This document shows positions 6,275 to 64,000 of a stretch of 64,000 bases of DNA, one piece after another. The position numbers and the translations under genes were made by a program. Position 1 is the first letter of the stretch, and every line of letters begins with the position of its first letter. Source of the stretch: Mesostigma viride (taxonomy: Eukaryota; Streptophyta; Mesostigmatophyceae; Mesostigmatales; Mesostigmataceae); assembly GCA_009746045.1 (NCBI GenBank), contig RPFO01000016.1, positions 1,661,920-1,725,919 on the forward strand, in the 5' to 3' direction. The notes under the pieces were generated by a model, which was given only the letters and a program-made list of their open reading frames with translations, ran no database searches and was not told the origin of the DNA.

Positions 6275-9200
6275 CTAGAAGCGCTGGTATAGTCCCAGCG
6301 CGCGCTCCGCCATCTGGATACAGTGGTCCGACTCGATCGCCGACGCCTGGCTCTTGCTGCTGCCCCCAATCAGCATGGGCATGCCCATGCGGACCACGCC
6401 CGTGGGCTCCGGGCGGCACACGCGGTCGGGGCGCACACCCACTTTGTCGATCGCGTGGAGGTGCGGGGAGAAGTATTTCGCGATCGTGACAAAGAGGCCG
6501 GAGCCGTCGTCGAGCTCGTAGACCGCCTGTTTGGGGGGGGGGGAGGAGGTAGGGGGTAGGGGGGAGACGTGCCGAGGGAAAGCATGCCACAGATGGAAAG
6601 GTTAGCGTAGGAGGTAAGAAAGGAGGGAGGTGCAAACACGGTGGAACCTTCATCTAACCGCTGTAAGCGAGCACTTGCTCAGCCGCTCATAGACAGCCTG
6701 AGGGGCTCTATCGTTTATAGACAGCTCGAGAGGGGGAAGGGGGGGGAGGAGATGTGTCCAAGAGGCATGTGCCATGGATGAAATATTAGGATGGAGGTAA
6801 CAAAATCCCTGAACTGTCGTCTAGCTCGTGAGCCGCCTGCATTGGTAGATGCAGTTTAAAAAATCCAATGTGGTTAGTTTTGGGATGGAGGGGTGAAAGG
6901 CGGGGGTGGAAGGAGCTTTGAGGAAGTAGGGCCAAGGAAATGCGTTGAGGTGATGGATGCCCTGCCACACGCACGAGGTTCTGCGGACAATTGAAACAAG
7001 ACGATGACTGATGCGGCACCGTCTTGTCACAATGCGGCCATAAACCAAGATGATTTCATTTGATCACATGAATTTCGTTTGATGCCGCCGTTCTTGAAGA
7101 GAGCTGAGGGATGTAGCGCGACCACGTCAGGGGAAAAACGGCAAACTTAACGAGGGAATAAGGGGTAGGCAGCTGGTATACGAGATCGGCACCTGGATGC
7201 GCCCCTACCCGTACGTACAGTCATTCACGCCTTTCGTTGGGTTGACCCGAGTAAACCCTCGCACTTAACTTACGGCGCGAATGACCTTACTACACGACAT
7301 GATTGTATAGTCCATGAGATGGCTATGGATTTGAAGCGAAGACAGCGACCGTACCCATACAAGAGGTCAACTTAATGAGGGAGTATCAGGTGAACTTAAC
7401 GAGGGAACCCCTTCTACCTAGACTTGGCCCTTGCCATAATAGAGGTGAACTTTGAGGTAGTAATCGGTGACCTTTCAACAGGGAACTGCCCATACCTGGA
7501 TGCGGTCCTATCCACAAAAGTGGTGAACTACTAATGGGGGAGTAATAGGTGAACTTAACGAGGGAACCGGTCCTACCTGGATGCGGCCCTTCCCATACGT
7601 GGTCTCCCCCATGACCAGCGCCCGCTGGTTGTCCTGCAGCGCGGATGCCAGAATCTCAGACGCGCTCGCCGTGCCCCCGTCGACCAGCACGACCATCGGC
7701 TCGTCCCCCGCGAGCGCCTTGGACCCTTCCATCAACTCCAGCCCGCTGATCGTGCCGTACCGGTCCACCGTGTGCACCACCGTGGACCCACCATCCAGCC
7801 ACATCGACGCGATCTCCAGCCCAGTGCTCACAATGCCCCCCGGGTTGGCCCGCAGGTCCAGGATGAACGAGTCCACGCCGCGGGACTTCAAGTCGAGGAT
7901 GGAGTTGTACATCTCCTCGGACGCACTCCCGCTGAAGCTGGTCAGGTGGATGTACCCGATGGAGCGGCGCTCGCCCGTCGGGGTCGTGTGGGTGATTGGC
8001 TCGGCGTACACTTGGTGGAACACGATGGGCTCGCGGCGGAGGGAGACCTCTCGGATGCTGCCAGGTGGCGCGCCAGATTCGGGGCTCCCGCTCTGCGAGG
8101 GGGCCATACAGGACACACAGAAAAGGAAAAGAATCCCACACGGCCGCGAATAAAGACAAGCCCGAGGATAAACACACGATCGGAGAACAATCCCATGATG
8201 TCTCAGAGGCGGCACGGCTATAGTGATAGTAGTGATTTGGACAAGGAATTTTCTGGGCCGGCTCTCTTATTGGAAGATGCATAAACAGATACCAAGGTTG
8301 GGCCAGCACGCCTGGCTTCCCCTGTAAACGTGCTACCAGTACCATGCTGCTTGTCTCCTTGATGCTACCAGTACCACTAGCAGCGTTATTACGCAGGTAA
8401 TAATAATAGTAAAAATAATAACGATACAGTTATGCAGATAATGATAATAATAATAATAATAACAATACTGTTATGCAGATAATATTAATAATAACAATAC
8501 TGTTACGCAGATAATAATCATAATAATTCTGCGCAGATACCCTGGCATATCTCACATCCTCAGATATCCTACCTTCGGACAGCGCATTACCGATGGGCGA
8601 TGGCGGCTTGATGCTGCCAAACTTTGTGTTGTAGAAAAAGACTTTATTGTCTTGTAGAAACAGCATAGAAAACCATCTCAACTTAAGTATAGACCATCTC
8701 AACTCAACGGATAATTTGAGCTCCAGGGTGGCAAACGTGCAATTGCCTGACCTATAGATAACTGGTCTGAAAGCTCCCAATTCCTTCAAAAAGAGGGAAA
8801 AAACAAGGCTGCATTCTCAAAAGGGGACCGGGGGGGGGGGGGGGGGGGAACTGCATTTGCAATGTAGATCCAAGAGTGGCTCACCGATTTCAGCTTGAGG
8901 TTGACAAACGTTCCCGATTCGCCCCGTAGCCGCGTGGCTGCCTCCTCCACGTCGATCCCGACGGCGGGCGCATCTGCAAGTATCAAAACCAAGGCAGGCG
9001 GACATTAAATCCCAAGGGGCAGGAGGATTGAGGGGAAGAAGAGAGGTTGAAATAGTGAGAGGGCACGTCCCGTGGATTCCCCACAGCCATGCCGACCGCC
9101 GATAGTGCAACCTGTGGCATGCCACTGGCATGAGGGAAGAGGGGAGTCCCTGCCCTTCCCGTTGTGCACGCATAGGCATTAAAAGCACTTTGTGCTCCTT

Positions 9201-12200
9201 GACTCCCCAACCGGAGCACGTGTTTTATTAAATAATTAGTTCATGCAAACCCCCACGCATATGCAAGTACAAAGTCCAAGGGAGGCGGACGATGCAGGGG
9301 TGGTGGTGGTGGTGTGGGGGGGGGGTAGAGGAAAGAAAGGTTCAACGGGTGCGACGACCGGACCTGTGTGTCCCCCACATCCATGCCGACGGAGGCAGTG
9401 TCTGCAAGTACCCATCCCAAGGGAGGCGGGCAGTAAGTATAATTAGTGAAGCGTATAGAAGCTATGCTTATCACGTATAATTATTGATATTAGTGAAGGG
9501 GTAGGATGGGAGGTGGACGATGCAGTGTTGAAATGAGAGGTGGACAATGCAGGGAAGTTTGGGCGAAGAGAGGTTAAACGGGCGTGACGACACCAAGAGC
9601 GAGGACGGGTCCCGGGCATTTTCCACACCCCTCGTTTCTGCGAGACAAATCATGTGTGCTTTCCACATCGCGGCCGACCGAGGGCGCACCTGCAACGACG
9701 TAAATGGGACTCCGGCTGGCAGGGAGGAGAGATCTCCACTGTGGGGAGGACACGCCATGTGCTGGGTATTTCACTGCCTCGGTGCCCGCAGGGCGGACAC
9801 CACTGCTACCATGGACTACAAGACAGGAGTGCAGCAGAGGAAACAAGGTTTGTCATGAGGGGAGGAGGCATCCAGGGTGTTCACCGCATCGATGCCCACA
9901 ACAGGGGGGCGTTGCAACGACTGACTCCAAGGGAGGTGGATTCCAAGGGTGGGGGGTGGGGGGTTGCAACAATTCCAAGGGAGGACTCCGAGGGGCGGGT
10001 GGGCAACCACCGGTGGATCTGCTTCCGTGGGGCACATGGATGAGGATATGAAGACCGGGGTCCATCAACCCCTAAAACCACTAGAGAGCGCCCCCGCGTT
10101 CTGGGTCGATAACTCACTGCACATACGCACCATTAATGCCGCCATACGCACCATTAATGCTCACATACGCACCATTAATCTCCACCAGTTCGTCACCAGT
10201 CTGGATGCCCGCGCGCGCGGCCGGGCCGCCATCAATGGGCGCCACCACGACCAACGAACCCGTGTTGGTTGCCCCCACGACGAGCCCCACCCCCTCCAGG
10301 GACCCTTCGGTCCCTACGACAAACTCCTGGTACTCGCGAGGTGGCACGATGCGCGTGAAGGGGTCGCCCAGCGACGCGATCATGCTCTTGACATGGTCAA
10401 ACGCCTTGTCGGGGGACGACTCGACGGCCGCTTTGTTCATGCTGTCGGCGAGCACAGCGATCCAATCTGGGAGGGCGAAAGCGGGAAATGGCCCAGCCGC
10501 GCGTGCAGAACGGCCCAAAGAGGTTCAGTGGCCCAGCGGTGCGCGTGTGGGGTGGGGAGGAGGGAAGGGAAGGGGGGCAAGCATTCGTGCACATGCACGA
10601 GAGCGCGCATGTGTCAGCGAGTACAGAGATACTCCAGTCAGTGGAGACGAGTAAAGAGGGAGGCTTTCTTTTGGGAAAGAGGTGGGGTGAGGGAGGCTGT
10701 TCCTTCATTGTGGTAAAAAAGGAGATGAGAGGGGGAGAGGCGGGCGTACGGTGTCAGGGGATATGGGTGGGTGGAGATGAGACGAGCCAGTTTGCGTGGA
10801 GGCGTTAAAAGGGAGCAAAAAAGGGTAGGGGAAAGAGGGGGGGAAGGGAAAAGGGGGTGTGGGTGGGAAAAAGATGAGTCGAGCCAGTCTGCGACATAGT
10901 GACCAAACGTCGGAGTGGGTGGATACGGGGAGGGTGTTAAGGGGTGGGGGAACCCATTTGTGGGCAGGTACAGCGGCGAGTGTTCCGCGGAGCACATGGT
11001 TCTGTTCGTGGGAACTAAAAGCTGCATTGGGGGAAAGGGGAAGTGAGAGGGGGGATATATTTATTTATATATATATTTAAAGCGAGAGGGGGAAGAGATA
11101 GAGAGGGGGGGGGGGGGGGGGGGGCGCGGGAGATGAGCCACGCACCGCGGTCTTATATCGGGTACAGTGACCGCAGCGGTGCACCGGGTGGGTGAGGGGT
11201 GGTTGAATGGGGTGGGTGAGGGGTGGTGAAAGGGAAGCAGGGGGAGAGTGCGCTCCTGCGGGGGACAGTGCGCTCCTGGTCTACGCAGGAGCATGACCAT
11301 GTGCGCGATCGACCCCACCTGTGAGCACGGCGGCGACTTGCTATGTATACTCTGCAAGTGGGGGTGGCCAACTTACTGTTTACTCTAGTGACGTCGCAGT
11401 AGTAACACGGAAAAGGATTGATTAGACCTCGTCGGGCTACAGGTCGGAGAATCGGCTCCCTCTTACCAGCACAGTGTGGCTGTAGACTGGGCTCATGGGC
11501 TCACCTGGGTGGCTCTGTGCATGCCCGGTTTCCAGCCTTATGTGACAATTATTTTAACCGTGCTTAGTGTTACCCATCTGACTCACTCACTTGCTTTCAT
11601 TAGTAGTACATTAATTATTGGACGCCCTACATGGCTCAGTTCAACGAGTTGGCTAAAATTGATTGACAGGCTAGATAATGTCTACCGAATCAGCTCACCC
11701 TGGCTGTTGAAGGTGTCGTCCACATACTCCTCACGGACGATGTTCCAGGACGCCATCAGGGTGCCCTGGACCATCATGACCTGGCAATGTAATAGAATCC
11801 AAGAGAAGAAAATATAACAACCATCGTTATGGCATCATTATACAAGAGGTGAAGAAAGGCAACATGCAAACACGCAAATACGCGCGCAACCACAGTCACA
11901 ATTTCCAATTAGAAGAAATGTTGAAGCGTCGCGACAGAGTGAGGACGTAATTATCAGAGGGACGTGACAAGTTCACAAATAGATGAGACTGGCGAGCACA
12001 GGTCTACAGGCAATGCCCCAGCCCCCAGACAATCAGCTCGCGCGCAACCAAATGACTTTATGAATTGTGGCGAAATACACGGCAAGAATGAGGGTCCCAA
12101 ATTTGTAAAAGTGAGCACAATCGGCGTGGAATTGAAGTAAAAATGTCCGCCGCGCCCGTCCCGCGTACCTCGGGGTCACCGGCGATGTGGATCTCCAGCA

Positions 12201-12510
12201 TTTCCTCTTGGGCAGGTGGCGCGGCAAACGAGGGGTTCACGAGTGCTGGGGACAGTTGGAGCAGAGCCGACGACGCTCCCGCAATCAATGTTGCCTTTAG
12301 TCCTTCGGCAACACGTGTCCTCCATGATCGCCCTGGTGGTGGTGCATTCGAACACAAAGTCTTGGTCCGCGCCGCTGGCCGTCTCCTGGGTTCGGGGTTT
12401 GGGGCCGGGCGGGGACTCCGAGATGCGCGGGCGGTGAAAGCTGCTGTTTTACAAGAGGAATTGACGTGGTGAGTGGCAGCTCCGGTTGTCGCGAACATCG
12501 ATGTAGCCAT
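6275..12510 (-). CDS. ctpA: Carboxyl-terminal processing protease (CtpA / D1 processing type), six exons
   Basis: Serine endopeptidase of family S41A. In photosynthetic eukaryotes the family removes the C-terminal extension of photosystem II D1 in the thylakoid lumen. Exons (-): 12,510-12,169; 11,780-11,699; 10,466-10,173; 8,973-8,885; 8,092-7,577; 6,526-6,275. All junctions are GT-AG with matching phases, giving 524 aa. Residues 1 to about 90 are Ser/Ala/Arg-rich, then a hydrophobic stretch ends in PSFA, as expected of a bipartite chloroplast/lumen presequence. The PDZ domain spans exons 3-4 (VGLVVG..., GIDVEEAATRLRGE). Exon 5 holds the core: LDLRANPGG, then GTASASEI with the likely nucleophile S412, and YGKG with K437, spaced 25 residues as in known D1 proteases. 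Exon 6 has GLFVTIAKYFSP and IDKVGVRPD. The start at 12,510 is chosen for the transit peptide; an in-frame ATG at 12,567 is possible. The substrate is inferred from family. Confidence 0.93.
6540..7576. repeat. CtpA intron 5 with decayed copies of both flanking exon edges
   Basis: Near the donor side, the exon 5 end (GGCCGCATCCAG|GT) recurs at about 7,490-7,515, 7,400-7,440 and 7,185-7,205, with an associated GTGAACTTAACGAGGGAA unit repeated between copies. Near the acceptor side, the exon 6 start (GTCTACGAGCTCGACGAC and its CAG) recurs at about 6,795-6,835 and more weakly at 6,655-6,710. The runs of G at 6,532-6,566 are low complexity. Confidence 0.6.
8831..8849. repeat. Poly-G run in CtpA intron 4
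   Basis: An almost pure G run lies just downstream of the exon 4 donor. The neighbouring intron stretch 8,400-8,530 is AAT-rich with a roughly 40 bp repeated unit (acaatactgttatgcagat-like). Confidence 0.8.
9050..9960. repeat. Serial decayed copies of the CtpA exon 4 start in intron 3
   Basis: The exon 4 acceptor edge (plus-strand text: cgatcccgacggcgggcgcatctgcaag followed by an aggcaggcgg-like block) recurs in degraded form at about 9,075-9,105, 9,245-9,290, 9,375-9,435, 9,665-9,725, 9,780-9,800 and 9,880-9,945. Most copies keep a CTGCAA-type acceptor core and the GGGAGGCGG-type block beside it. Confidence 0.6.
10117..10179 (-). repeat. Three tandem 21-bp units, each carrying a 5' splice site (CtpA exon 3 end)
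   Basis: On the coding strand the exon end ATTAATG and its donor GTGCGTATG form a 21-bp unit present three times (10,179-10,159, 10,158-10,138, 10,137-10,117). The first copy is the donor used in the model (exon ends at 10,173). The units are in frame and stop-free, so use of the second or third donor would add 7 or 14 residues inside the PDZ domain. Confidence 0.9.
11106..11124. repeat. Poly-G run in CtpA intron 2
   Basis: A homopolymer of G lies beside a TA-rich stretch (ATTTATATATATATATTTAAA-like, about 11,060-11,080). It is purely low complexity. Confidence 0.8.
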
Positions 12511-12562
12511 GGCTGAGCTGGTGTATATACGGCCGGGCAGATTCCTTCTCAACCGCTTCCCC

Positions 12563-12600
12563 CACAATTACACAATTACACAATTACACAATTACACAAT
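12563..12600. repeat. (ACACAATT)n microsatellite upstream of CtpA
   Basis: Several copies of an ACACAATT-like unit lie about 55-90 bp upstream of the chosen CtpA start. A TATATAC motif lies at about 12,522-12,529, very close to that start. I cannot assign a promoter with confidence. Confidence 0.6.
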
Positions 12601-14440: not shown

Positions 14441-14464
14441 TTTGTCCGCATGGCATGGCTAACA

Positions 14465-14935: not shown

Positions 14936-14969
14936 CAAAAAAAATGGCTAACATAATGACTTCAAATTA

Positions 14970-18368: not shown

Positions 18369-18388
18369 GCTACGAGCCACGAGCGGAC

Positions 18389-18424: not shown

Positions 18425-18452
18425 GCCCCAAATTCAGTCAGGCTACTTGCAT

Positions 18453-18479: not shown

Positions 18480-18519
18480 CTAGTATAATCGGTTACGGCT
18501 GTAACGCAGTATTTTGCAA

Positions 18520-19968
18520 ATGCCACCAAAACGCAGCCTTGACAAACATTTTGAGCTGTCGTCGGCATTCCCGTCGACAGCAGCACGTGCGACATCAACT
18601 CCTGCGGACGCCAACCTTTTTGCGCTGATCGAAGCTCTCCCCCCCGGTCTGCCTCCCTCGACGCAGTGCTCTACGCCAAATTCGTCGCCCATTCCCAAGA
18701 AAACCCGAACTTCCCATACCAAATGGGATGTCCGCCGCTTCGGCGCCGGCCAGCGGGATTTTTGCATCTTGGAAATCTTTACGCTCACGAAGGAACAATG
18801 TGACGATGTTATCAAGTTCCTGGCCCGCCATGACGAACTTTTCCTGCCTACCCCTGGCGACAAGGTCACCAAGCCCGCCTGGGAATGGCTGCTTCAAGAA
18901 CCGGAGGCGTACTTGAAGGCAGTCATCATGTGCAGCTACCTGCGCTGCGACGCCCACGACATCACCCAGATTGGCTACGCTGGCCTCAGGAGCCTCCTGC
19001 ATGAGCGCAGACGGGCAGCCACAGCAGCTGCAGCATCCCCGCAGAGCAGCACCTCCCCCAGCACGGACTCCATCCGAGCTGCAGTGGCGGAGCAGCTGGC
19101 GCCGATGGCTGAGCAGCTCGCCGCCCTGAACGCGCCTGACGGCCCACTCAACACTCTCTCGGCCAAGGTCAACAACATTGAAGCCAGAGTCGCCCTTAAG
19201 CTCCAGCCTCAGTTTACTGCTACGCAAGAGCACATTGCCACCAAAGTTTCCGAGGCCACAGCCACTGTGACCACCCGCCTTAACCAGGTGGAAGGCCGAG
19301 TCGGCCAAGGCACCGTGAAACTTGAGGCAGTTGCCGCCAAGGTAGACGCCCTGGCCACGCAGGTCCCCGAGATCGCCGAGCGAACGGCCACCATCGCCGC
19401 CCAACCTGCTGGTAGGGCTAGTGATGACCCCTCGACTCGCGCCTCCTGGGCGGACCTGCTCAAGAGCCAGGCATCCTCTACCACGACCGCCATCACCACC
19501 AAGCTCCAGGAGCTGGAAGACACGCGCCGCGAGGCCGCTGACCGCGACCGTCGCCGCTGCCGGGTCATCCTCAGGCGCTTCGACATGCTGCCGGAGGAGA
19601 CCCCAGACTCTCTTCTCGACGAGCTGAAGAAACAGCTCTTGGCGCGCATGCAGCTGCCAGGTGCGATACTGCAGGGCGCCTACCGCCTGCCCCATCCACG
19701 GGCCAAGGCTGGGCCCCCTCCAGTGGTCCTCACCTTCAGCGACATCACAGCCCGAGTTCGGTTCCTCTCTCGCCGCAAGAAGCTGGTGGACACCTCCTGG
19801 TCGCTTGACGACGACCTGACGCCAGCCCAGCAGCAGCAACGCCGCGATCAGTGGCCCGACTACATCCGCCACAAGACCAACCCCGAGAAGCCCCAAGTGT
19901 ACTGGCGGGGCGGGGACCTCTACGTCAACAAGAAACTGTGGAAGCCCCCCCGGGCTTCCCCGGGATAG
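18520..19968 (+). CDS. LINE ORF1-like protein (intact)
   Basis: Predicted 482-aa RNA-binding/chaperone-type protein of a non-LTR element. The N-terminus is Ser/Pro-rich. Residues about 65-165 form a globular block (WDVRRFG...CILEIFTLTKEQCDDVIKFLARHDEL). An Ala/Gln-rich heptad region (about 185-320) looks like a coiled coil. Residues about 345-400 (RRCRVILRRFDMLPEETPDSL) and about 405-470 (AYRLPHPRAKAGPPPVVLTF; LDDDLTPAQQQQRRDQW) resemble the RRM-plus-C-terminal-domain plan of L1-type ORF1 proteins. The start is the first in-frame ATG; the frame upstream contains no ATG. No stop or frameshift interrupts it, unlike all other copies in the window. A host gene of retroelement origin cannot be excluded, but the flanking leader, hairpin and tail favour a mobile element. 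Confidence 0.75.
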   Translation: MPPKRSLDKHFELSSAFPSTAARATSTPADANLFALIEALPPGLPPSTQCSTPNSSPIPKKTRTSHTKWDVRRFGAGQRDFCILEIFTLTKEQCDDVIKFLARHDELFLPTPGDKVTKPAWEWLLQEPEAYLKAVIMCSYLRCDAHDITQIGYAGLRSLLHERRRAATAAAASPQSSTSPSTDSIRAAVAEQLAPMAEQLAALNAPDGPLNTLSAKVNNIEARVALKLQPQFTATQEHIATKVSEATATVTTRLNQVEGRVGQGTVKLEAVAAKVDALATQVPEIAERTATIAAQPAGRASDDPSTRASWADLLKSQASSTTTAITTKLQELEDTRREAADRDRRRCRVILRRFDMLPEETPDSLLDELKKQLLARMQLPGAILQGAYRLPHPRAKAGPPPVVLTFSDITARVRFLSRRKKLVDTSWSLDDDLTPAQQQQRRDQWPDYIRHKTNPEKPQVYWRGGDLYVNKKLWKPPRASPG

Positions 19969-20338
19969 AGCACTCCAGCTAGTTGTCTAGATGGGGGCAA
20001 TCGATGATGGGATAGCTTAGGCATTACAGCACTTGAAACGATATTAGCGCACAGCGTTATAGTACCTTCAATTAGCTCTGGCACCTTGTGGCCATCAGCT
20101 TGCGCCTTAATTAGCCGACGTCTTGAGCCCACCTCACATTTGTAGCATAAGCTATGCGTCAGCCTACCTATGGTATTGCACTGGTTGTATTGCACCCACA
20201 GTGTTGCGCCCCGGCACCATGCCGTGGAGAGAGCGCTCTGTGGCCTGCCCACCTGCGGCAGTGAGAGAAGCTAGGGCGCCCTCCCTCCTTCTCACTGTGT
20301 ATATAGGGTTGAAGGTTCCTTTACTCTGTATTGGCACC

Positions 20339-24251: not shown

Positions 24252-24332
24252 ATGACTGCGGCATGGTCATCAGCTCCTGCCCCTGTGCCAGGCATGGTCA
24301 GCAGCTCCTGCGCCTGTGCCAGTCATGCATCA
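24252..24332 (-). repeat. Two extra copies of the VTA1 stop-codon region
   Basis: The final coding stretch GCGCAGGAGCTGCTGACCA of VTA1 recurs immediately downstream as GCGCAGGAGCTGCTGACCA (about 24,315-24,297) and GGCAGGAGCTGATGACCA (about 24,285-24,268), separated by a TGGCACAGG-like linker. Confidence 0.85.
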
Positions 24333-32624: not shown

Positions 32625-35600
32625 TCAAGGCCACTCGGGGAAGGACGCGGTTGCCTCATTGAGCATCTCGATGAGCTGCACGGTCGCGCTGGGCGTGCCC
32701 TTGGGGGGGAGTGGCAGGTTACGTGGGAGAGGCCTGGCCATGTAGTCGCGCTGCACGGGAAACATTACAGTCCAAGGAAGAGAAGGGGAAACACAAACAT
32801 TTATTTATTCCAGGAATAGTTGTCTCACTTAATATTATGTAGAAACCAAAAGGACAAGGTCAACAAGAAGGGGAAAACAAAAGGACAAGGTAAACAGGTT
32901 GTGAGGGAGTGGCTTGGCCATGTAATCGCGCTGGGCGGGGGAGGACGGTCCGAATGGACATGACGAAGAGCAAAAAACACATACTATCACAGATAAATGT
33001 TACAGTCAGTGACGCGGTCAAAGGATCAGAAGCAAGGCTGCGCCGTGGGCACGGCCAAATGGGCATGATCGATGGCATCACCACAGATCAGATCTAGTTG
33101 TGCGATAGGTGTCGACAATTTAGGGTGGTAAACGGGAAAGTTGAGGGTGGCCCCAGGATTTCAAGGTCAATCCAGTCCAGGAAAGGACAATCCAATGGTC
33201 GCAAGTCATGCTTTGCGACGACAACAAGATATACTACGCACCCAGGGGATGTGATTCATATACTGTGCACTCACGAGATGTGTGTGTAAGTGATTGATAA
33301 ATAATTAACTCAATTACGCGCAGTCCCGTTGGGGAGCCGAGAGATGTGATGGAGCAGCGGACACGCCCAAGAAGACGGTAACAAGGCAGGTTAGGCGGTC
33401 AAGGGATCCGTTCCAACATGTGATGTGCGGTATGCCTGGCCCAAGTGGACCCAACCAGCGACATGATAGCAAGAGTAATGAAGGTTGTGTCAGGAAATCA
33501 GTAGCAGCACCGAGTGGACAGTATCGGCCTGCCTTAAGTGGCAGGAGTTGAAGGGTGGGAGAGGTGCCACCGTCACGAGCAAAGGAGCGCCAGCGCCAAG
33601 GTAGAGAAGCCTAGTCCAACTTATACTGCACGATGATCAGTAGAATACTGCGCTGAGATGCTCTCTGTGCACAGAAAGATTTATTTGTTGGATATGCACA
33701 GAGAACTATAAATATTTAGAATGCAGTATACTATGGAATAGACTATTGTAGCAGTACACTATGGTATGATACTATTGTAGCAGTATACTATGGTATGATA
33801 CTATTATAGCAGTACACTATGGTATGATACTATTGTAGCAGTACACTATGGTATGATACTATTGTACTACACTGTAGTAGTATGTTAGTAGTACTAGTAC
33901 AGTGTCGTATGTACAAGAGTACCCTTGAGTGTGAGCACGCTCCTCAGCCTACATGCACGGTGCATCCACAGCCTACATGCACGGTGCACGCAGCGTTAAT
34001 CTACGACCCGTGCAGCCATGCGCATGCATGTGCTTTGTACTCAATACGACAGTGTCAACCGCAGTGTCCTTCTAAACAGCCCAAATTCCTACCGCTTCGC
34101 AAGGCAACACCCTTCACCATCTCCCACCAGTTAACCAACCGCACAAGAGGTTTTTACAAGGGTTGCATCAGTACCTTGTCAAAATGCCAGGGACCAACTT
34201 TGCCCGGGGTGTGGTTGCCATCCAGGTCAAAATCACACCCTGCGGGGACCCGGGGAGTTTGGCGCCAACCACAGGGGGGACCCAGGAAATCGCGCAGACC
34301 ACGAGAACCCGGATTGCGCAGCCACGAAAACACGGAGAGCACCCAAATGAGTGGCACGCCCACAATATAAGCAAACAAAATAGGCACGGTTATGGTCAGT
34401 ATGGATGGCAACTTGGCCATCTCATCCATTGCTGTGGCTCGAAGCTGCTCTCATGCTGGCTTTCGCCAACCGCGGCAGCCATACTCTTTCTTACTACCTC
34501 TTCTTTATCACCGCAACGCTCGCCCTAACCGTCACAGTATCCATGAACCTCCCAGTAGGCCTTCATTCAGGATGTGAAGAAACCCTTCTGGGGGGTTCTA
34601 TAGCGCAAACACACTCCCGGTACGTGTATTGCAGGATGTGGGGAGCTTATTGATGTTCACACCAGGAGGGTGTGGCAGCGTGGATGCGCGCACCGTACTA
34701 TGCTACAGTATGTACAGTGCAGTAGCTGGGAAGATTCTTGTTGTCAATCAAGAAGGTACTTGACCGCTGATGAACGCACCATACGTACTTGACCGCACAT
34801 GAACGCACCGTACGTATAGTGAAGGATGTAAAACGTCGACAGGTCCTTGTCCCACGGCGTCTGCGCAGCCAGCTTGGGCTCCAGATCGTGCTTCAGCCCA
34901 AACTGGAACAAGGGAGGAAAGGGAGATAAGGCAGAAGAGGGTAAAGAGAAGGGTGAGAGGACAGAGGCTCCAGGTCATGAGTCCGCCCAAACTGGAACAA
35001 ATTGGAAGTATGTAAAGGCAGAACAAGCTAGACAGGAGGTAAGAAAAGGCAGGCTCCAGATAATGTTTTGAGCCCAAACTTGGGGGGCGGGGAGGGGCGG
35101 GGGGGGGGGAGGCACAGAAAACAAAGGTAATGCGTCAGCCCAAACTCCAACGAGGCAGAATGAAGATAAGGCCAAATCAAGGGATAAGGGGGGCGGGAGA
35201 TGGGCTCCAGGTGATGCTTCCGTCGAATTGGGAAAGGAAGTGCGGGCAATATAGGCAATGCCTCAGGCCAGCTAGGACATTTTAGACATTTTGTAGGACA
35301 TTAGTCTTAAAGGCATTTTCGGGAGAAAGTGGGGGGAAAGACAGGAAGAAACAGGGAGAGGTGGGGGATCAAATTCTTTAAAAAGCCGTACCAGGCTTTC
35401 AAAGAATTTGTTTTTAGCTGGTACCAGGCTCCCAAACATCTCCATCTCTAGCACCCATCCCCACACCTGGTCGCCCTCTCTCTAGCCACCATCCACCTGG
35501 AATGCAGAAGAACAATGTTCTCCTATTCCCTTAGATCGCCAACAAAAAATGAACTCCTCCTTTTCCCTTGCTTCCCCCTTTCTTTTCTCTTCATCGCCCC

Positions 35601-38600
35601 ACTCACCATGTGTGCCGTGAGCGAGTAGCCGTACATCTCCAGCACCCATCCCCACGCCTTGTTCGCCTCCGCGTCGGTCTTGATCGCGATGGAGACGTTC
35701 AGCCACATGTCAGCCATGCGCGCGAGGTCATATTTGTTGACAAAGTTGGGCGAGTTGCCGATCGGGTCCATCAGGTCAATCTCCTCGTCCTGAAGGGCAT
35801 GTGCGGCAAAGTGGTGGTTGGATGAACACAACCAGGTGGTTAGGGACTTTGCCGATCGGGTCCATCAGGTCAATATCCTCGTCCTGGAGGGCATGCGTGG
35901 CCTTGAGATCATCGGGGTGGGGGAAAATAGGATGAGATGAGAACGCTTCAGTGAATGGGGAAGTCGACGAATCGGATTTAACTTGCATGCGCCACTCTAG
36001 CTATGCTAGTTACCTGTTCACTATACCAGTTGTGTATAGTGAACAGGACCGCCGGGGGGGGGCGGGGAGGGGGGGGCGCTTGGGGTGAACAGAGCGGATG
36101 TGCTGCGGAGAGGCAGCGTGCGTGTCCCACCCACCGTTGCCTGGTGGCCGATGAACTTGCGCACGATCGGCTTGTAGTCCTTTGGTTGGATGTAGAAGAA
36201 GGGGAAGGCAACCGGGACATCGCCGCGCATCAAGTTTGGCAGTGGGCGCAGGAAGATGTGGTCCGGCTCCGCCATCAGGATGTACTTCTCGGGGATGGTT
36301 TCGATGTACCTGTTGTTGTTCGATGATTAGGGCAATAATGGGCGGGGGCGCAAGCAACCGTGGGGGCGTTGAGGTGAGGGCTCGAGGATGTACATCTCGG
36401 GCATGGTTTCGATATGCTAGCTGTTGTAGGGGGTAGGTGTGGAAGCAGAACTGGTGGAGGTGATGTGAAGGGGAGGCCACGAGTATATCTCGGGGACCGT
36501 TTCATGTGTGGGGATGAAAGCAGACAGGGGCATAGATGAAGGGGCAGGAGCAGCAGGGCATGAGGATGTGGTTCTCAGGAGGGGTCTCGATGTACCTCCT
36601 GTGGAGATGAAAGCAGAAGTCAAAAGAGTGGTAGTATGGAGGGAGTGGCAGCGTGGTAGGTGTGGGAATGAGGACCTATCTCTTGGGGATGGTTTCGATG
36701 TACCCTATGTTTTGATACAAGCAGACGAGGGCATGGGCAGGAGCAGGGGGGGCTAGTCTTACAAGGCCGGAGAGGGCGCAGGTTTAACATAGCCCACATG
36801 CATGTAGTTTGGCACATCCATGTCATCCCTTGGATGGCTGGCAACGAAACGGCTGCCAAAAAATGACTCACACGTCACAAGAAACACACACTAGAAAAAA
36901 GAAGTCAAGTATTACTCACTGGCTTTGGTGCAATACGACCCTGTGTGGTGATACTCGTGCATCTGGCATCATGGAATGAAGAACGGTCCACTACCAACCA
37001 AACGCACACAATACAATGAACCGACACTAGTCTCAATGAACAGGCCCTATACAATACCATTAACGGGCCCTAGACAATACCATTAACAGACACTAGACGA
37101 TACCGAGTAGTCGAGTCTCCACGGACACTAGAGGCTATCGGCGCCACCCACTTGTGGCACCACTGGATGAACGCGTAGGGTCGCGAGAGGACCACAAAGC
37201 CATGGTCGTTGTCCAGCTGGTCCACCACCACAGTAGGGATCTCGTCCATCAGGTCGTCCGACACGCCCGAGTGAAGAAGCCGGGTGAAGCCTCCCATCGT
37301 CTCTGAAGGTTGAAAAACAGACAGCGGAAGATGGGGGCGGTAGCAAATGGGGGCGCACGAGGAAAGATGTTGGACAAGGGGCCGTATAAAGGGGGTCCAG
37401 AAGACAGCCACCCAAGACAGAAGATTGCCTCTCTCCTAAAGGGGAATCACATCAGAACGCGGCACCAGGAAATCAGGGCAACCGGGCATAGGGGCAAATG
37501 GGAAGACCGCTTCGTCAGGAGTCCAGGGTTTACAGTTTAAGAAGTCAAAACAAAGCCGCCCATCGCCTCAGTCGAACGTCACGTGTGATTGAGGCATGTG
37601 GGAAAACTGGATAATCGAGATTATATCGCATACTTCGTACATCACGTGTGATGGGGGCACGTGGACCAGGCGACAAGAGGGAACTATGAAACAAAGCCGC
37701 CCATCGCCTCTGTCGAACGTCACGCGATGACATTACAGGGAAATCGTATAATATGGATGGGCTCAAGGCACCATCACAAGGGTAGAAGGCTTAGGGAGAA
37801 AACACTATTTAATATAAACTTGGGGCAAGTTGGGGCACAGCAACGTCCTTCCACCGGTAGTAGGCGACGCACTCACACACAATACTACACTATAGTGGCC
37901 GGAAACACACACACACACATACACACACACCAGCTACATCACCTAGATGCCTCCACTCACCTGTGTCGTCGGCCGCTTTCTGCTTCTTCCACCAGTAGTA
38001 GGCGATGCGTGACTGCCAGCGCGTGTACTTGGCGGCGTTGCTCGTCATGATTGTGTGATACGCGCGCGACTTGCCCTTTTGAATGTTCTTGCTGGTGATA
38101 AGGGCATGGGGTAGAAGACAAGGTAAGGGGATAGTGGAGGCGTGGTCCCATGAGCACAAGGTAAGGGGATAGTAGAGGCGTGGTCCCATGAGCACAAGAT
38201 AAGGGGATAGTGGAGGCGTGGTCCCATGAGCACAAGGCAAGGGGATAGTGGAGGCGTGGTCCCATGAGCACAAGGTAAGGGGATAGTAGAGGCGTGGTCC
38301 CATGAGCACAAGGTAAGGGGATAGCAGAGGCGTGGTCCCATGAGCACAAGGTAAGGGGATAGTGGAGGCGTGGTCCCATGAGCACAAGGTAAGGGGATAG
38401 TAGAGGCGTGGTCCCATGAGCACAAGGTAAGGGGATAGTGGAGGCGTGGTCCCATGAGCACAAGGTAAGGGGATAGTAGAGGCGTGGTCCCATGAGCACA
38501 AGGCAAGGGGATAGTGGAGGCGTGGTCCCATGAGCACAAGGTAAGGGGATAGTAGAGGCGTGGTCCCATGAGCACAAGGTAAGGGGATAGTGGAGGCGTG

Positions 38601-41600: not shown

Positions 41601-44291
41601 TACTCAGAATTGGGGTCGTTGTGGCAGGGCAGGGGGGCATCATCGTCGGCTGCCGCTGCTGAAGCTGCGATGTTAGTGCCGGCGTCTTGCTGCACACGTT
41701 TAGCAGTTGAGGTGACGAAATATTTGTTAGTAAGCTAGAAATTAATGCCCCAGTTACTTGGTGGATTCAGTAAAGAAAAGTGCCTATGTGAGTTGATCAA
41801 GAAAGCAATTAACTGTGTTCCCATACACTTTCAGATGTAAGGGCTCACATAATTGAAGTAATGCGAACGATGACAGTACAGCCGTACTGCTGAAGGATAC
41901 ACCTCAGAAGCAAGGCTCGTGAAACAGATTCAGGAACTGCTCGGTGGCACCATAAGAGTATGGTCTAATACCATCAAATGCCACAGTGTGCAAGTATTGC
42001 GGTGTTGCAGTGTGCAAGGATTGTAAGCCTAATCCAGCACCACCAACCAACCCAGACCAACACCTTCATCACACAAGCCAGGGAAAATGACCCCGCCTGG
42101 TCAAAGGACATGCATAAGGCAAGATTGACAACAGGAAGAGTGATCAAGGGCCATCCCACTCAAAACAATTATTAGAACAGGAAGAGTGATCAAGGGCCAT
42201 CCCACTCAAAACAATTATTAGAACAGGAAGAGTGATCAAGGGCCATCCCACTCAAAACAATTATTAGAACAGGAAGAGTGATCAAGGGCCGTCCCACTCA
42301 AAACAATTATTAGAACAGGAAGAGTGATCAAGGGCCATCCCACTCAAAACAATTATTAGAACAGGAAGAGTGATCAAGGGCCATCCCACTCAAAACAATT
42401 ATTAGAACAGGAAGAGTGATCAAGGGCCGTCCCACTCAAAACAATTATTAGAACAGGAAGAGTGATCAAGGGCCGTCCCACTCAAAACAATTATTAGAAC
42501 AGGAAGAGTGATCAAGGGCCGTCCCACTCAAAACAATTATTAGAACAGGAAGAGTGATCAAGGGCCATCCCACTCAAAACAATTATTACTACTTCGCAAA
42601 AACAATTACTACAAAGTTGCAAGGCTACCCCTATCGATTTTTGGACTCCCCCCCCCCCCCCCCCCCCTAGCGGTTTGCCTGTTCGAGCAACCAAGAGAAA
42701 CTACAATCGAATCATTTACAACCAAGGGCGCTCACAGCAACCAAGGGCGCCACAGCGCATACATACAACAGCGCTCAAAACCCAATGGATCTGAACCGAT
42801 AACAGCCACAAAATTAAATTATTAAATTATAACATGCCTCCGTGGGGAGGTCATGTAGCACATATTTCATGATGGATGGGATGGAGGAAGCCGCGTGATC
42901 GAACTATCCTAACTCTATCTACACTAACAGCCACAAACAAGAGCAAAACCACAGATCACATGCATTTCTTTCACACCTGACAGGAGAGAGCCCTCAATCC
43001 TTACCTGTACCTGCTGCTGCTGTGCGGCGGCCACACTCGGCCCGTCCGCCCGCCCCCTGTTGCGTGTCAAGTCCCTGATAAGGCGCTCGTCATTGGCCAG
43101 GGCTTTCTCCTTCTCTTGATAGGCAAGCTCGCGCTCCTTTGACACCTTGCCGACCGCCTGGACAAGAAAGAAACGGAAATAGTGAGGTCGGCAGGGAGGT
43201 GGTGAGGAAGGTAATGCGGTGGTGAAGGCAGCACAGGCAGCACAGCTATACCGAACAGCTCACACTCACCTACCACCTTGTTGACCCTGGGTGGTAATGA
43301 CAAAGAAGAGGGAAAGGAGGGGGGGGGATAATGAGGATAGACAAGGAACAACAGCAAGGCGAGGGGGGATGGGGAGGGGGGGAGAGGGGGGAGGGGAGAA
43401 GGGGAGATGCCATAACCCTTACAAACCAAAAAAAGGACCCCTCCTATGTGCCATCATTTGAGACTAATTGCACTTGGCCGCATGCCACCATAAACGAGCC
43501 CCAGTATAAACTCATGCGTATGCCTCCAGCCATGCGGAGGCGGATGCTTGATTACGAAACACACCAGGCAAATGGGGGCTTCACTCTGTTATCAGCTCTG
43601 ATGTCTTGCCCGACTTCCAAAGTCAGCAAGTGACGGTAAGAAAGTGCCAAGCGCTCACTAATGCGGGATTCCTCATACCAAATCGTTCGCTCAACCTGCT
43701 ACCCGATACTAAGGCACGTGCGGTCATAGCTGATATCTCAAATGAATTTACCATATGTGACAAGTAAGCACAGTTGCCTTTAAGACGACATGATCTGTTT
43801 ATTGGTCGTAAAAACAGGATGCTTTAGAAGGCCACATGCTTAGCAGATACAAAAAAGTCACGCAGGTGGGCACGCAGGCAGGCAGGTAGGCAGACGGGCA
43901 GGCGGGCACAAAAGCAGAAAGACGGGCGCATGAACGAACGAAGGCGGGGTGCACACCCGCACTCCTCATCCTATTACTGCAACAGGCGGGGGCACCAGGA
44001 GAATGTATTGACATTCAGGGAAGATCAGGGACAGAGCATTCATATCCATCACGTATCCTACGTGCGCACCTCAAGCGCCTCCGTCATGGCCGTGACTTTG
44101 CTGATGAGGGCTGCTCGGTCCTGTTCAGAGCGCTGCAATGCCGCAGTCGTGTCTTCCAGCTTCATTTCCAGCTCATTTTTTACGTGCAGCACGTTGTTAT
44201 ACGGTTCCCGCTGAATAGCGGAGTACACATTATACATGGCGACAATAATAGCAAAGCCGCCGATGAAATGGACTACGCTAATGCGTGCCAT
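32625..44291 (-). CDS. HPAT: Hydroxyproline O-arabinosyltransferase-like glycosyltransferase, eleven exons
   Basis: Golgi type II enzyme family that adds arabinose (or, in the sister SGT group, galactose to serine) on Hyp-rich cell-wall proteins. Exons (-): 44,291-44,070; 43,157-43,005; 41,689-41,421; 39,735-39,637; 38,091-37,961; 37,302-37,152; 36,309-36,135; 35,789-35,607; 34,902-34,809; 34,239-34,175; 32,750-32,625. All phases join, giving 555 aa. Residues 2-22 are a signal anchor (VVHFIGGFAIIVAMYNVY), then a coiled coil (about 35-120), then a Cys-rich PAN/apple-like block (about 145-215, KKCNTWVWC..). The catalytic region has YHTIMTSNAAKYTRWQSRI, GGFTRLLHSG..DDLMDEIPT, ILMAEPDHIFLRPLPN (AEPD at 355-358), FPFFYI, IDLMDPIGNSP, WGWVLEMYGY and HYTYGCDFDLDG..GKVGPWHFDK. 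The C-terminus ends MLNEATASFPEWP. An ATG at 44,309 would add six residues. Arabinosyl versus galactosyl activity is not decided by sequence. Confidence 0.9.
32870..32945 (-). repeat. Decayed copy of HPAT last-exon start in the last intron
   Basis: The plus-strand text GAGGGAGTGGCTTGGCCATGTAATCGCGCTG resembles the exon 11 acceptor edge (GGGAGAGGCCTGGCCATGTAGTCGCGCTG, 32,726-32,752). It lies about 120-190 bp upstream in transcription direction. Confidence 0.8.
33725..33880. repeat. 29-bp tandem repeat in HPAT intron 10
   Basis: Unit gcagtacactatggtatgat plus actattgta, about five copies with few changes. Confidence 0.85.
34670..34808. repeat. Copies of HPAT exon 9 donor edge
   Basis: The exon 9 end with its donor (TACGTACG|GTGCGTTCATG) is followed downstream by a second TACGTATGGTGCGTTCATC (about 34,794-34,776) and a weaker one near 34,690. 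Confidence 0.7.
34903..35262. repeat. Four decayed copies of HPAT exon 9 acceptor edge
   Basis: The edge (plus-strand: gggctccagatcgtgcttca, then gcccaaactggaac) recurs at about 34,966-35,005, 35,050-35,085, 35,127-35,155 and 35,202-35,235, keeping GGCTCCAG and/or CAGCCCAAACT cores. A further block at 35,440-35,480 copies part of exon 8 (AGCACCCATCCCCAC). Confidence 0.75.
35840..35910 (-). repeat. Duplicate of HPAT exon 8 start with its own acceptor
   Basis: The coding-strand copy CCCTCCAG|GACGAGGATATTGACCTG..GACCCGATCGGCAA lies about 94 bp upstream of the true exon 8 acceptor (35,789). It is nearly identical for about 50 bp and then diverges. Translation of the copy gives DEDIDLMDPIGKVP. 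Confidence 0.88.
36330..36720. repeat. Four decayed copies of HPAT exon 7 acceptor edge in intron 6
   Basis: The edge (plus: gtacttctcggggatggttt, then cgatgtacctgttgttg) recurs at about 36,386-36,427, 36,481-36,505, 36,563-36,605 and 36,675-36,715, all with the order CTC..GGGATGGTTTCGATGTACC and spaced about 90-110 bp apart. Confidence 0.8.
37540..37880. repeat. Copies of HPAT exon 5 and exon 6 edges in intron 5
   Basis: The exon 6 acceptor edge (AAGCCTCCCATCGTCTCTGAAGG) is echoed at about 37,553-37,577 and 37,690-37,720 (AAGCCGCCCATCGCCTC.GTCGAACGTC). The exon 5 end (CTTCCACCAGTAGTAGGCGATGCG) is echoed at 37,848-37,872 with two mismatches. Confidence 0.75.
38129..38675. repeat. 38-bp minisatellite, about 14 copies, in HPAT intron 4
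   Basis: Unit gtggtcccatgagcacaagg plus taaggggatagtagaggc. Copies vary mainly at two positions (GTGG/GTAG and AAGG/AAGA). It gives long but spurious frames in all three minus frames. Confidence 0.95.
38885..39130. repeat. Tandem blocks around GCAGGATGAAGGGCGAGC in HPAT intron 4
   Basis: Five or so imperfect copies of about 30-55 bp. A separate 74-bp unit (AATT.GGAAGTTATATGGTG..) is duplicated at about 39,335-39,465. Confidence 0.8.
39749..39822 (-). tRNA. tRNA-Ala(TGC)-like cloverleaf, probably a relic
   Basis: On the minus strand: AATACCG / CGGTACT acceptor (6 of 7 pairs); a D-arm-like GCCGTG-CCTA-CATGGC stem; anticodon arm TATGC-TTTGCAA-GCATA with anticodon TGC; and a T-arm loop TTCGATT preceded by TTGG and followed by CC. 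Total 74 nt. The D arm and positions 8-9 are not canonical, and the T stem has mismatches or a bulge. It ends 14 bp before the 3' splice site of HPAT exon 4. Chance or a decayed tRNA is more likely than a working gene. Confidence 0.25.
39840..40060. repeat. Three decayed copies of HPAT exon 4 acceptor edge in intron 3
   Basis: The edge GCGCCTGCCACTTGAGCCTGTT (plus text) recurs at about 39,843-39,870, 39,930-39,965 and 40,028-40,060. Each copy sits beside a GAGAGCCC or GAGCCC and TATAGGGAACATTTACAGCACG block, the copies being about 85-95 bp apart. Confidence 0.8.
40826..41180. repeat. 48-bp minisatellite, about seven copies, in HPAT intron 3
   Basis: Unit ccattccaccacgccaggct plus aggagcgccaccatgctgga plus atacggcc. 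The unit is a multiple of three, so long frames run through it on both strands. Confidence 0.95.
42131..42590. repeat. 46-bp minisatellite, ten copies, in HPAT intron 2
   Basis: Unit acaggaagagtgatcaaggg plus ccatcccactcaaaacaatt plus attaga. Copies are almost identical, with a CCAT/CCGT alternation, so the array is recent or homogenised. A C-run follows at 42,648-42,667. Confidence 0.95.
42800..42930 (-). mobile_element. Family-A LINE 3' tail in HPAT intron 2
   Basis: TAAATTATTAAATTATAACATG, the CTCCG..GGGAG hairpin, CATGTAGCACAT and the GAAGCCGCGTGATCGAAC block match the 3' ends at 14.97-15.06 and 21.00-21.10 kb. It is a very short 5'-truncated insertion. Confidence 0.75.
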
Positions 44292-47094: not shown

Positions 47095-48750
47095 AAGCCC
47101 GAACTGGTGGATTTGCATTTATTAACTAATAAGCAAGTGACTGAGTCACGTGGGTACGTGCCAATACAGAGTAAAGGAACCTTCAACGACTATATATACA
47201 CAACGCGAGTTAAGGAGGGATCGGCGCCCTAGCGCTTCTCTCACTGCCACAAGTGGGAAGGCCACAGAGCGCTCTCTCCACAGCATTTTGGCGGGGCGCA
47301 ACGCTGTGGGTACGTGCAATTAATACAACATGCAATACCATTGGTAGCCTGACGCATAGCTTACGCTACAAAGCCGGTGAGGTGGGCTCAAGACGTCGGC
47401 CCTATAAGGCGCAATTAGCTGCATGGCCACAAGGTACCAGCGCTATAACTATAATATAAGATACCAGCTAGAGCTATCTCAGGGTATTTCCTCGTAAATG
47501 GTGGGAGAGCGATCGCAGCAATGTTGCTCACCACTAGACACTCCCGGCCAGTTAGGCTCGAAACACACGCCCTGATCAAGCATGCTGTTTCCGGCCCCAC
47601 CGTCCAGGTCATCTAGTCGCTCTACACGTAAGCCAGCCATAATTTCAATGCACAAGGATACACATTTCCATCGATCACCATTCATCTTCATCATCCTGAA
47701 CGACTCGAACACGCGGACAAGATAACGGCAGGCTCGAGCTACCATGGTCCGGATTCTCCCGATTTCTGGCCTGCGCTGGTTGTCAAGGATCCTTGATAAT
47801 ATAAGATACCAGAGCTATAACTATAACATAAGATACCAGAGCTATAACTATAATGCTGTGCACTAATATCATGTTTCAAGCTAGCTAGTGCTGTAATGCC
47901 TAAGCTATCCCGTTATTGTCAATTGCCCTCATCTAGACATGCAACTAGCTTGAATGCTCTGTCCCGGGGGAGCCTGGGGGGGCTTCCACAGTCTCTTGTT
48001 GACATGAAAGTCCCCGCCCCGCCATGCATGCAGTACACTTGGGGCTTCTTGGGGCTGGTCTTGTGGTGGATGTGCGTCGGGCCACTGGTCGCGCGCGGCG
48101 TTGCTGCTGCTGGGCTGGCGTCAGGTCGTTGTCAATTAAGCGACCAGGCCGGGGGTGTTCACCAGCTTCTTGCGGCGAGAGAGGAACCGAATTCGGGCTG
48201 CGATGTTGCTGAAGGTAAGGACCACTGGAGGGGGACCAGCCTTGTCCTGTTGATAGGCCGGGCAGGCGGTAGGCGCCCTACAGTGGGCACCGTTCCTTGC
48301 ATGCAGCTCCATGCGTGCCCGCAAGAGCTGGTTCAGGACTGAGCTCGTCGAGAAGAGAGTCTGGGGTCTCCGGGCCCGGCGCCTTGTCGAAGCGCCTGAG
48401 GATGACAGGCCCGGCAGCGGCGACGGTCGCGTTCAGCGGCCTCGCGCGCCAGGCGTACGTCTTCCAGCTCCTGGAGCTTGGTGATGATGGCGGTGGTGGT
48501 AGAGGTTGCCTGGCTCTTGAGCAGGTCAGCCCGGCAAGGAGGTGCGAGTCAAGCTAGGGCCGGGTCATCGCTGGCCCTATACACCGGCAGGTTGGGCGGC
48601 GATGGTGGCAGGCCGGGTTCGCTCGAGGCGGTATCTCGGGAACCTGCGTGGACAGGGCGTCTACCTTGGTAGCAACTGCCTCAAGTTACACGGTGCCTTG
48701 GCCGACTCGGCGCCTTCCACCCGCCTGGGGCCGGTCACAGTGGCGTTGCG
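47095..48750 (-). pseudogene. Decayed, inverted copy of the ORF1-A element, itself interrupted
   Basis: On the minus strand the ORF1 C-terminal half (about 48,650-47,960) is the frameshifted counterpart of residues about 280-482 of the intact ORF1 at 18.5 kb. The 3' UTR follows (to about 47,160, shared with 20,000-20,330), then a hairpin variant near 47,135-47,155 and a short tail. Between about 47,467 and 47,800 sits a foreign block flanked by near-identical ATAATATAAGATACCAG repeats. Confidence 0.7.
47467..47800. mobile_element. Insertion of another retroelement fragment with flanking repeats
   Basis: Flanks AACTATAATATAAGATACCAG (about 47,448-47,467) and ATAATATAAGATACCAGAGC (about 47,797 on) look like a duplicated target, which has then re-duplicated. 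The insert shares about 200 bp with 29,545-29,750. Confidence 0.6.
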
Positions 48751-52550: not shown

Positions 52551-52557
52551 TCCTTGC

Positions 52558-52800: not shown

Positions 52801-52989
52801 GCAGCGGCCAACAGGGAAGCCCCGACCCCACAGGGTAAGCAAGGGGACCCGTGCTTATGCTATTCTCCACGACCTTCTCGTGCAGCGTGGGCAGTGCCAA
52901 GGGCTCGGTCGTGTTATTGCGAGACATGGCGGCACCCATCGCGAGAGGTGCATGGCGCCAACCATCCCAGCGCATTGTAGTACCGGCAT

Positions 52990-53900
52990 CAACAGCGCCT
53001 CACCACCGAGAGGGGCCAAAAACCGAGAGGGGTGAAAGTATTACAGACTGACAGGGGTCAAAGATGGCCTCATTTGGCCCGTGGTGAAAACCAGCACATC
53101 CTCGGGCGCACAGCAGGTTCTACAAGGCCCCCATTGATCCCTGGCAAAGAGCATCGTGAGGCCAACATGGGTCACAACGCCCGTGTCTAACAAACGAGCG
53201 TTGGCGGAACATCAGGTCTGGTCGAATATCGGGTACCAACATGAGGCGTGGACACGAGCGTCCTTTGGTGGTGGAAGCCGAGGTGTGGGGAGAGCTGGCC
53301 AAACCACGGCTGTCGTGCCATGGTGTCAAATGACAGCATCTGACGCCGAGTGCCCTTGAGCCCCTGTCCGCAACTGCTCTCTGCAGTTCCTTGTCAAAGA
53401 GCCGGTGTCAGGCGCGGCTGTTCCTACCCAGCTTCGTGCCTGCGTGGCGGTAGTCACCCTATGTCGTTCACCCATCCCTCGCTTAACCGCCGCGGCCATC
53501 CGGCAGTTGGGAGTCCTGCTACGTGGGCCATGCCCACACAGCCATGTGCCACCCGATCGGCAGAATGTCCCCCAGAATGCCACCTGGCCATGTGCCCCGC
53601 GACACGAGCCCATGCCAGACGGCTTTTGCCACGCAGTTTCGTGACCGATGCCTTGCAAGAAGACTGACGTGGCCCCGCTCTGATGCACTCTGTATCTGTA
53701 CACCGCCTTTGCCATGAGGTAATGGGTGTGTCTCGCTGCATTCGCCCATGCCTACGTGGTCGCATAGCCACCGGACTGGGCCGCATGCCTTACTGGATGG
53801 CTGTCGCCATGCGGTAGCTGGCGTCCCGCTACCTGTATCTTCCTAAACGTGCTGCACCACGTGGCCATTGTGAGCCTTGCTGCATGTGCCCCGTGCCTTT
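52990..53900. repeat. Dymeclin 3' flank with decayed copies of the last coding end
   Basis: The final coding edge (CCGCCGTCGCGACGCGGTAGTTGGAGTCCTGGGGC, 53,907-53,941 on plus) is echoed at about 53,488-53,523 (CCGCCGCGGCCATCCGGCAGTTGGGAGTCCTGCTACG) and 53,795-53,830 (GTCGCCATGCGGTAGCTGGCGTCCCGCTACC). GCCATGTGCC/GTGCC-like spacers lie between them. Confidence 0.65.

Positions 53901-64000
<10,100 letters not shown>

Follow-up and report, generated by a model that had tools for sequence, protein, structure and literature searches.

Serial worn copies of exon edges in introns of Mesostigma viride, probably in the main the readable part of a general tandem duplication

In tandem exon duplication a whole exon is duplicated together with both of its splice sites. 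Intron lengthening by means other than transposons is hard to read, because duplicates of non-coding DNA erode on both sides. Introner elements are another of the nearest known systems, and intron gain by tandem genomic duplication is an established route by which exon-derived sequence likewise comes to lie in introns, according to the portion of PMC3443670 used here. A sequence-only reading of one stretch of DNA proposed a further pattern, namely that each locus repeatedly duplicates its own exon-boundary DNA outward into the neighbouring intron or 3' flank. The stretch, called the window below, comprises 64,000 nucleotides from Mesostigma viride, an early-branching streptophyte alga, and is part of a 439.9-Mb assembly. 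The published genome of this species measures 441.8 Mb with a mean intron of 1142 bp; it is described as transposon-rich, repetitive elements make up 30.1% of intron space, and the long introns are linked to these repeats (Liang 2019, PMC6947507, in the parts drawn on here).

Pfam domains were found at the genes named in that reading (Vta1, TPR repeats, WD40, PDZ, HPAT and dymeclin), and the gene models used here were built independently of it. The dymeclin exons of the window match residues 267-934 of protein P0103 exactly, and each of the nine introns in the model has a single GT/AG solution within the searched range that reproduces P0103. For CtpA (5 introns) and HPAT (6 introns), conserved blocks and splice sites guided manual models, without transcript support. 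The HPAT gene is supported by a PF23452 match; the CtpA blocks presumably resemble those of other CtpA proteases, and one reading frame of the CtpA region gave no match against PDB. For the first exon of both HPAT and CtpA the start was guessed, and neither start served as an edge. In the edge test, the outer 60 bp of an exon was aligned to its outward intron or 3' flank (at most 1200 bp); only exon bases served as query, so splice-site composition makes no contribution to the scores. Dinucleotide shuffles, antisense alignments, other flanks of the same gene and flanks of other genes were used as controls.

A second set of edges was taken from chaperonin genes outside the window, whose selection took no account of the pattern. 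A PF00118 search gave 58 matches, of which 50 were used, in 11 stretches (L020-L030). These yielded 86 edges, which were set by the profile end plus the best GT or AG and are less exact than those of the window; edges with a flank under 200 bp were left out. L026 and L027 are near-identical copies of one locus, and their edges are not independent. One further chaperonin frame (G000:C2011:1347332-1348840) is intron-less and full-length (profile 1-489 of 490), unlike the multi-exon genes, and may be a contaminant or an organelle-type copy.

In dymeclin, CtpA and HPAT, 20 of 43 edges matched their own flank at z>3, with 3 of 43 in antisense. Against 500 dinucleotide shuffles, 19 of the 43 reached p<=0.01 (antisense 2/43), which speaks for real edge copies and not by-eye bias; they comprise nine of 20 donors, nine of 20 acceptors and one of three stop edges, and the other 24 window edges gave no significant own-flank match. 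At least one significant edge was found in 15 of the 20 introns, so the pattern is common, although the claim that it occurs in nearly every intron was somewhat too strong. Copies had also been read beyond the stop codons of VTA1, the TTC29-like gene, dymeclin and probably CtpA. With 60-bp stop regions, the scores of the first three were reached by 0 of 200 shuffles, and these three regions carry about 40 bp of coding sequence; the CtpA copy did not hold up (28/200 shuffles reach its score). The stop region of the WDR4-like gene was weak (15/200) and that of HPAT not significant (55/200). One to four copies per edge were seen in the window at the threshold used, which fits the one to six first proposed. 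The source exons and their copies are as follows, with identities given as identical positions over aligned length and with retained splice dinucleotides noted.

36135..36309, minus strand: HPAT exon 3, source of an acceptor-edge ladder (hand model, PF23452)
36385..36413, minus strand: HPAT exon 3 acceptor copy 1, shift 108, 27/29 identical
36478..36507, minus strand: HPAT exon 3 acceptor copy 2, shift 200, 25/32
36559..36595, minus strand: HPAT exon 3 acceptor copy 3, shift 286, 29/37, AG kept
36668..36703, minus strand: HPAT exon 3 acceptor copy 4, shift 394, 30/36
35839..35883, minus strand: acceptor copy of HPAT exon 4 (35607-35789), shift 94, 41/46, AG kept
35443..35474, minus strand: HPAT exon 4 donor-region copy, shift 192, 29/33
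34966..34991, minus strand: acceptor copy 1 of HPAT exon 5 (34809-34902), shift 89, AG kept
35052..35078, minus strand: HPAT exon 5 acceptor copy 2, shift 176, AG kept
35201..35227, minus strand: HPAT exon 5 acceptor copy 3, shift 326
32895..32930, minus strand: acceptor copy of HPAT exon 7 (32625-32750), shift 180, 30/36
37848..37870, minus strand: copy of a stretch near the HPAT exon 1 donor, shift 138, 21/23
62309..62526, minus strand: second dymeclin exon of the window, from which a donor-edge ladder derives (model based on P0103)
62206..62246, minus strand: dymeclin exon 2 donor copy 1, shift 108, 37/46, GT kept
62102..62147, minus strand: dymeclin exon 2 donor copy 2, shift 207, 36/46, GT kept
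62002..62044, minus strand: dymeclin exon 2 donor copy 3, shift 310, 33/47, GT kept
58144..58195, minus strand: dymeclin exon 6 donor copy, shift 293, 44/55
57418..57468, minus strand: dymeclin exon 7 donor copy, shift 121, 44/53
55860..55887, minus strand: donor copy of dymeclin exon 8 (55928-56519), shift 70, 25/28
55528..55572, minus strand: dymeclin exon 8 donor copy, farther, shift 398, 38/45
55152..55175, minus strand: acceptor copy of dymeclin exon 9 (54494-54705), shift 470, 21/24, AG kept
54155..54177, minus strand: acceptor copy 1 of dymeclin exon 10 (53901-54069), shift 108, 22/23
54241..54276, minus strand: dymeclin exon 10 acceptor copy 2, shift 207, 30/41
54372..54411, minus strand: dymeclin exon 10 acceptor copy 3, shift 342, 30/41
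53482..53518, minus strand: dymeclin stop-region copy, shift 418, 29/37
7496..7524, minus strand: donor copy of CtpA exon 5 (7577-8092), shift 79, 24/29, GT kept
7193..7216, minus strand: CtpA exon 5 donor copy, farther, shift 384, 21/24, GT kept
6776..6836, minus strand: acceptor copy of CtpA exon 6 (6275-6526), shift 310, 44/63, AG kept
24255..24293, minus strand: VTA1 stop-region copy, 37-75 bp past the stop codon
27703..27736, plus strand: TTC29-like stop-region copy, 104-137 bp past the stop codon

The chaperonin edges matched their own flank at z>3 in 18 of 86 cases (antisense 5/86), and the remaining 68 were without a significant own-flank match. For the comparison of own with other flanks, the 102 of all 129 edges with a flank of at least 580 bp were taken. 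A score of at least 18 was reached by own flanks in 20 of 102 cases, by the other flanks within a gene in 0 of 340 and by flanks of other genes in 8 of 4732; at a score of at least 14 the corresponding counts are 35/102, 17/340 and 174/4732. Each locus therefore copies its own edge, as had been proposed, and the same sequence in many introns was not found among the other-gene flanks at a score of at least 18. The sequence-only reading had named its own test, in which matches to own flanks no better than those to non-flanking edges or shuffles would point to by-eye bias; own flanks are in excess over both. The edge-copy pattern is real, and it is general in the sampled genes.

At least one copy with a score of 14 or more was found at 50 of the 129 edges (window plus L020-L030), giving 91 copies in total. 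The junction is the exact starting point of 43 of the 91, and 70 start within 8 bp of it; the exon part measures 20-50 bp in 58 of these 70, with a median of 35 bp. The copies stem from donor and acceptor edges and from some stop regions. The splice dinucleotide is kept in 30 of 43 junction-aligned copies, eight of them in one array, which indicates that the copies cross the junction. When that array is set aside, the proportion is 22/35, about what an identity of roughly 80% per base leads one to expect, so nothing points to copies being retained or eliminated for their splice sites. At 20 edges the nearest copy lies at most 150 bp away (range 48-128 bp), and at 17 of these it lies at 70-128 bp, set against a proposed spacing of 70-110 bp; at 15 further edges the nearest accepted copy is more than 150 bp away. 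Shifts within ladders are fairly regular, with 108, 200, 286 and 394 bp at HPAT exon 3, 108, 207 and 310 bp at dymeclin exon 2, and 108, 207 and 342 bp at dymeclin exon 10. The proposed decay with distance is a weakly supported trend, the nearest copy being more like the exon than the farthest at 13 edges, less like it at 4 and tied at 1.

Likeness on the intron side at the same shift has z>2 in 15 of 68 copies, with a median z of 0.63. Among the 20 edges with a nearest copy at most 150 bp away, the exon share is at most half of the shift at 17, compared with about 7.3 predicted by evenly placed breakpoints. The seven acceptor units in this set all retain 48 bp of intron or more, and donor units as little as 17 bp. 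Mean identity is 0.78 between copy and exon and 0.70 between copy and copy, and the former is higher in 15 of 17 ladders, a comparison biased by the choice of copies for their exon likeness. Only 3 of 40 window copies overlap a tandem-repeat (TRF) call, the calls being 32 merged intervals from 72 rows.

The window also holds near-perfect minisatellites at 38118-38688 (38 bp x15), 42130-42588 (46 bp x10) and 61200-61882 (45 bp x15), the last inside dymeclin intron 2 of the window. A 21-bp tandem repeat in three copies (10120-10179) places several possible donors in a row at the end of CtpA exon 3. A segment of about 600 bp occurs in near-tandem duplicate at 793-1994 (66% identical), and open frames at 18598-19986 and 47854-48339 share an ALSRGS-GGLPQ motif and are perhaps a dispersed element.

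Young arrays were found in the chaperonin genes. In L024 (G000:C1702, oriented ~4481-4960), a 48-bp unit stands ten times head to tail with few changes. The unit consists of the last 31 bp of the exon and 17 bp of intron, donor included; the first unit forms the exon end and donor, and nine further units follow, each with a GT donor. In L030, a 76-bp unit made of 20 bp of exon and 56 bp of intron occurs four times. Head-to-tail adjacency in one orientation is seen in both arrays, antisense excess in the edge tests is absent or small, and for the old ladders serial spacing is what the data give. Copying of the unit over its whole length is likewise clear in the young arrays, set against the 15 of 68 copies overall with intron-side likeness. 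The young arrays look like the starting state, of which the window ladders are the worn form.

Recent change can also be read from L026 and L027 (G000:C887 and G000:C1641), the near-copies of one chaperonin locus, which share 96.3% identity over 3.7 kb and 93.3% over 1.5 kb. Five gaps of at least 8 bp occur before the alignment breaks, one of which is a 3.1-kb insertion. Among the four short gaps, two are clean intronic tandem duplications (18 bp and 43 bp) and two are not clear-cut. In this one locus pair, which may represent haplotypes or a segmental duplication, neither tandem duplication lies at a junction and none of the gaps at a ladder.

Duplication away from exon edges was measured by comparing 60-bp tiles with the neighbouring 1 kb and counting a score excess of at least 5. 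In the window, a local repeat was found in 30.0% of 786 intron tests (antisense 2.4%), in 12.8% of 1897 intergenic tests (antisense 3.2%) and in 6.7% of 164 exon tests (antisense 4.9%). Seventeen loci pooled from around the window and elsewhere gave 17.9% of tiles at threshold (antisense 4.0%), a few loci being very high; L006, L012, L013, L017 and L019 had no local-repeat excess. For the random loci 18 stretches were obtained, one of 542 bp was left out, and L002, L004 and L016 contain many N. In the window as in the chaperonin and random loci, most shifts of non-exon duplications measure 60-140 bp, those below 60 bp being undetectable by this test.

With 40-bp tiles at the 129 edges, 26% score just inside the exon and 2-3% deeper in it, while 23-31% score in the first 120 bp of the intron and 13-24% at 120-700 bp; tiles beyond 700 bp were too few to count. 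Similarity between exon and flank ends about 40 bp inside the exon in the window and L020-L030. Junction-proximal intron tiles exceed deep ones on average (28.2% vs 17.4%, 71 edges, Wilcoxon p=0.022), but edge by edge 31 are higher and 27 lower, so the enrichment is modest. A strong process acting on edges only was rejected, as intron interiors and non-genic DNA are duplicated too. Of the proposed general outward duplication of exon boundaries, there remain copies that are real, specific to their own locus, often serial and lengthen introns; targeting of the boundary is not supported, since interiors and intergenic DNA share the process. For the same reason, exon edges appear to be mainly the most readable part of a general tandem duplication. 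Edge copying is not proven to be specific to exon edges, although the unit takes in less exon than would be expected.

The reading we prefer, with a probability of about 0.8, is that introns are lengthened by serial tandem duplication of the ordinary kind (minisatellite birth and decay), in part of junction-spanning units, and that the duplicates later decay. It starts from local direct repeats that are specific to their own locus, from junction-spanning arrays both fresh and decayed, and from the same size class off exons. The recent 18-bp and 43-bp tandem duplications that distinguish L026 from L027 also speak for it. Short segments, mostly of about 50-140 bp, would be duplicated in tandem repeatedly in non-coding DNA. 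Where a segment spans a splice junction or stop codon, the unit on the exon side would stay functional and the outer units would drift in the intron or 3' flank, and repeated rounds would leave a longer intron with a ladder of worn junction copies. Selection holding the exon would make decay one-sided; a pair of copy and exon decays on one side and a pair of intron copies on both, which is probably why exon edges stay readable. We infer the order of events, their neutrality, the junction used and the molecular step, be it slippage, unequal exchange or end joining. Against ordinary tandem duplication stands the weak intron-side likeness, which is expected if both sides drift and also if the copy never had an intron part. 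The short exon share (17/20 against about 7.3) and the modest junction-proximal enrichment count against it as well, as do the edges lacking a significant match (24 of 43 in the window, 68 of 86 in the chaperonin genes), the five loci free of local-repeat excess and the position of both recent duplications away from junctions. Selection may explain part of the short share, as an acceptor can be retained only together with a branch point and pyrimidine tract of its own; acceptor selection does not account for why units at donors and stop codons hold so little exon.

A rival reading is a duplication process aware of exons, in which chromatin, transcription or events coupled to splicing would direct breakage or copying to exon ends, with units starting 20-50 bp inside the exon. 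The fall in tile similarity from 26% in the outer 40 bp of the exon to 2-3% deeper, units that are no more than half exon at 17 of 20 edges where about 7.3 are expected, the richer first 120 bp of intron (p=0.022) and the roughly 40 bp of coding sequence in the three supported stop regions all agree with it. However, the same size class and process are seen in intron interiors, intergenic DNA and random loci, selection can set part of the bound (seven acceptor units hold at least 48 bp of intron, donors down to 17 bp), and we know of no mechanism for such guidance, which we judge unlikely. That introns grow largely by a junction-duplication ratchet, gaining a unit of about 100 bp per round with breakpoints placed within the outer ~50 bp by an exon-aware mechanism, is doubtful. 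If true, the steps of growth would stand in order within each intron, and decayed units would make up much non-transposon intron DNA.

If an exon segment with an AGGT were tandemly duplicated, a new intron could arise with exon copies left in it; such intron birth accounts for exon-derived intron sequence but misfits the geometry. It predicts a single donor-exon copy at the far end of the intron, directly ahead of the acceptor, whereas the copies here run outward in series beside their own edge and often carry that edge's splice site; for these copies, intron gain of this type was rejected and is very unlikely. Insertion of a dispersed mobile element, or of an introner-like family, next to exon ends would suit a genome rich in transposons (Liang 2019, PMC6947507, in the parts drawn on here), yet in the sampled genes the flanks match their own edge and not the edges of other genes, with no antisense excess, which makes such a family extremely improbable. 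By-eye bias or shared base composition with no real copies could draw on the 24 of 43 window edges that are not significant and on the antisense hits that exist (2-3 of 43 in the window, 5 of 86 in the chaperonin genes). The shuffle, antisense, same-gene and other-gene controls and the near-identical arrays leave it scarcely credible, and it was rejected for the whole pattern, though individual weak copies may still be chance.

Under serial tandem duplication, the exon edge is a fixed reference, and the copies outward from it keep the spacing and relative age of the growth steps. Repeat annotation may miss much local duplication, since 30.0% of intron tile tests are positive in the window and few of its copies (3/40) overlap a tandem-repeat call. 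Splice sites duplicated in this way also provide material on which alternative splicing can draw. The term "tandem repeat" is absent from the main text of the Mesostigma genome paper, as far as that source was available (Liang 2019, PMC6947507). Junction-spanning edge ladders are apparently without earlier description, a provisional statement set against a narrow literature, mostly that paper and one review.

Compared with tandem exon duplication, the ladders have duplicated exon sequence inside an intron in common, but the copies are mostly 20-50 bp of one exon end with one splice site; whole-exon duplication was not seen at the 129 edges, where similarity is at background beyond about 40 bp into the exon. 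With introner elements they share repeat sequence that makes up intron DNA, although no family common to the loci was seen here and each locus has its own source. Intron gain by tandem genomic duplication likewise involves exonic sequence that is tandemly duplicated and spliced out (PMC3443670, in the portion used here), whereas here existing introns lengthen serially at their own edge and no new intron is shown. Minisatellites also have head-to-tail units of tens to about 140 bp in multi-copy arrays that decay over time. Most ladders here have diverged too far for a tandem-repeat caller to pick them up (3 of 40 window copies overlap a call), and, unlike in a minisatellite, units lie across a working splice junction and the one at the end belongs to the gene.
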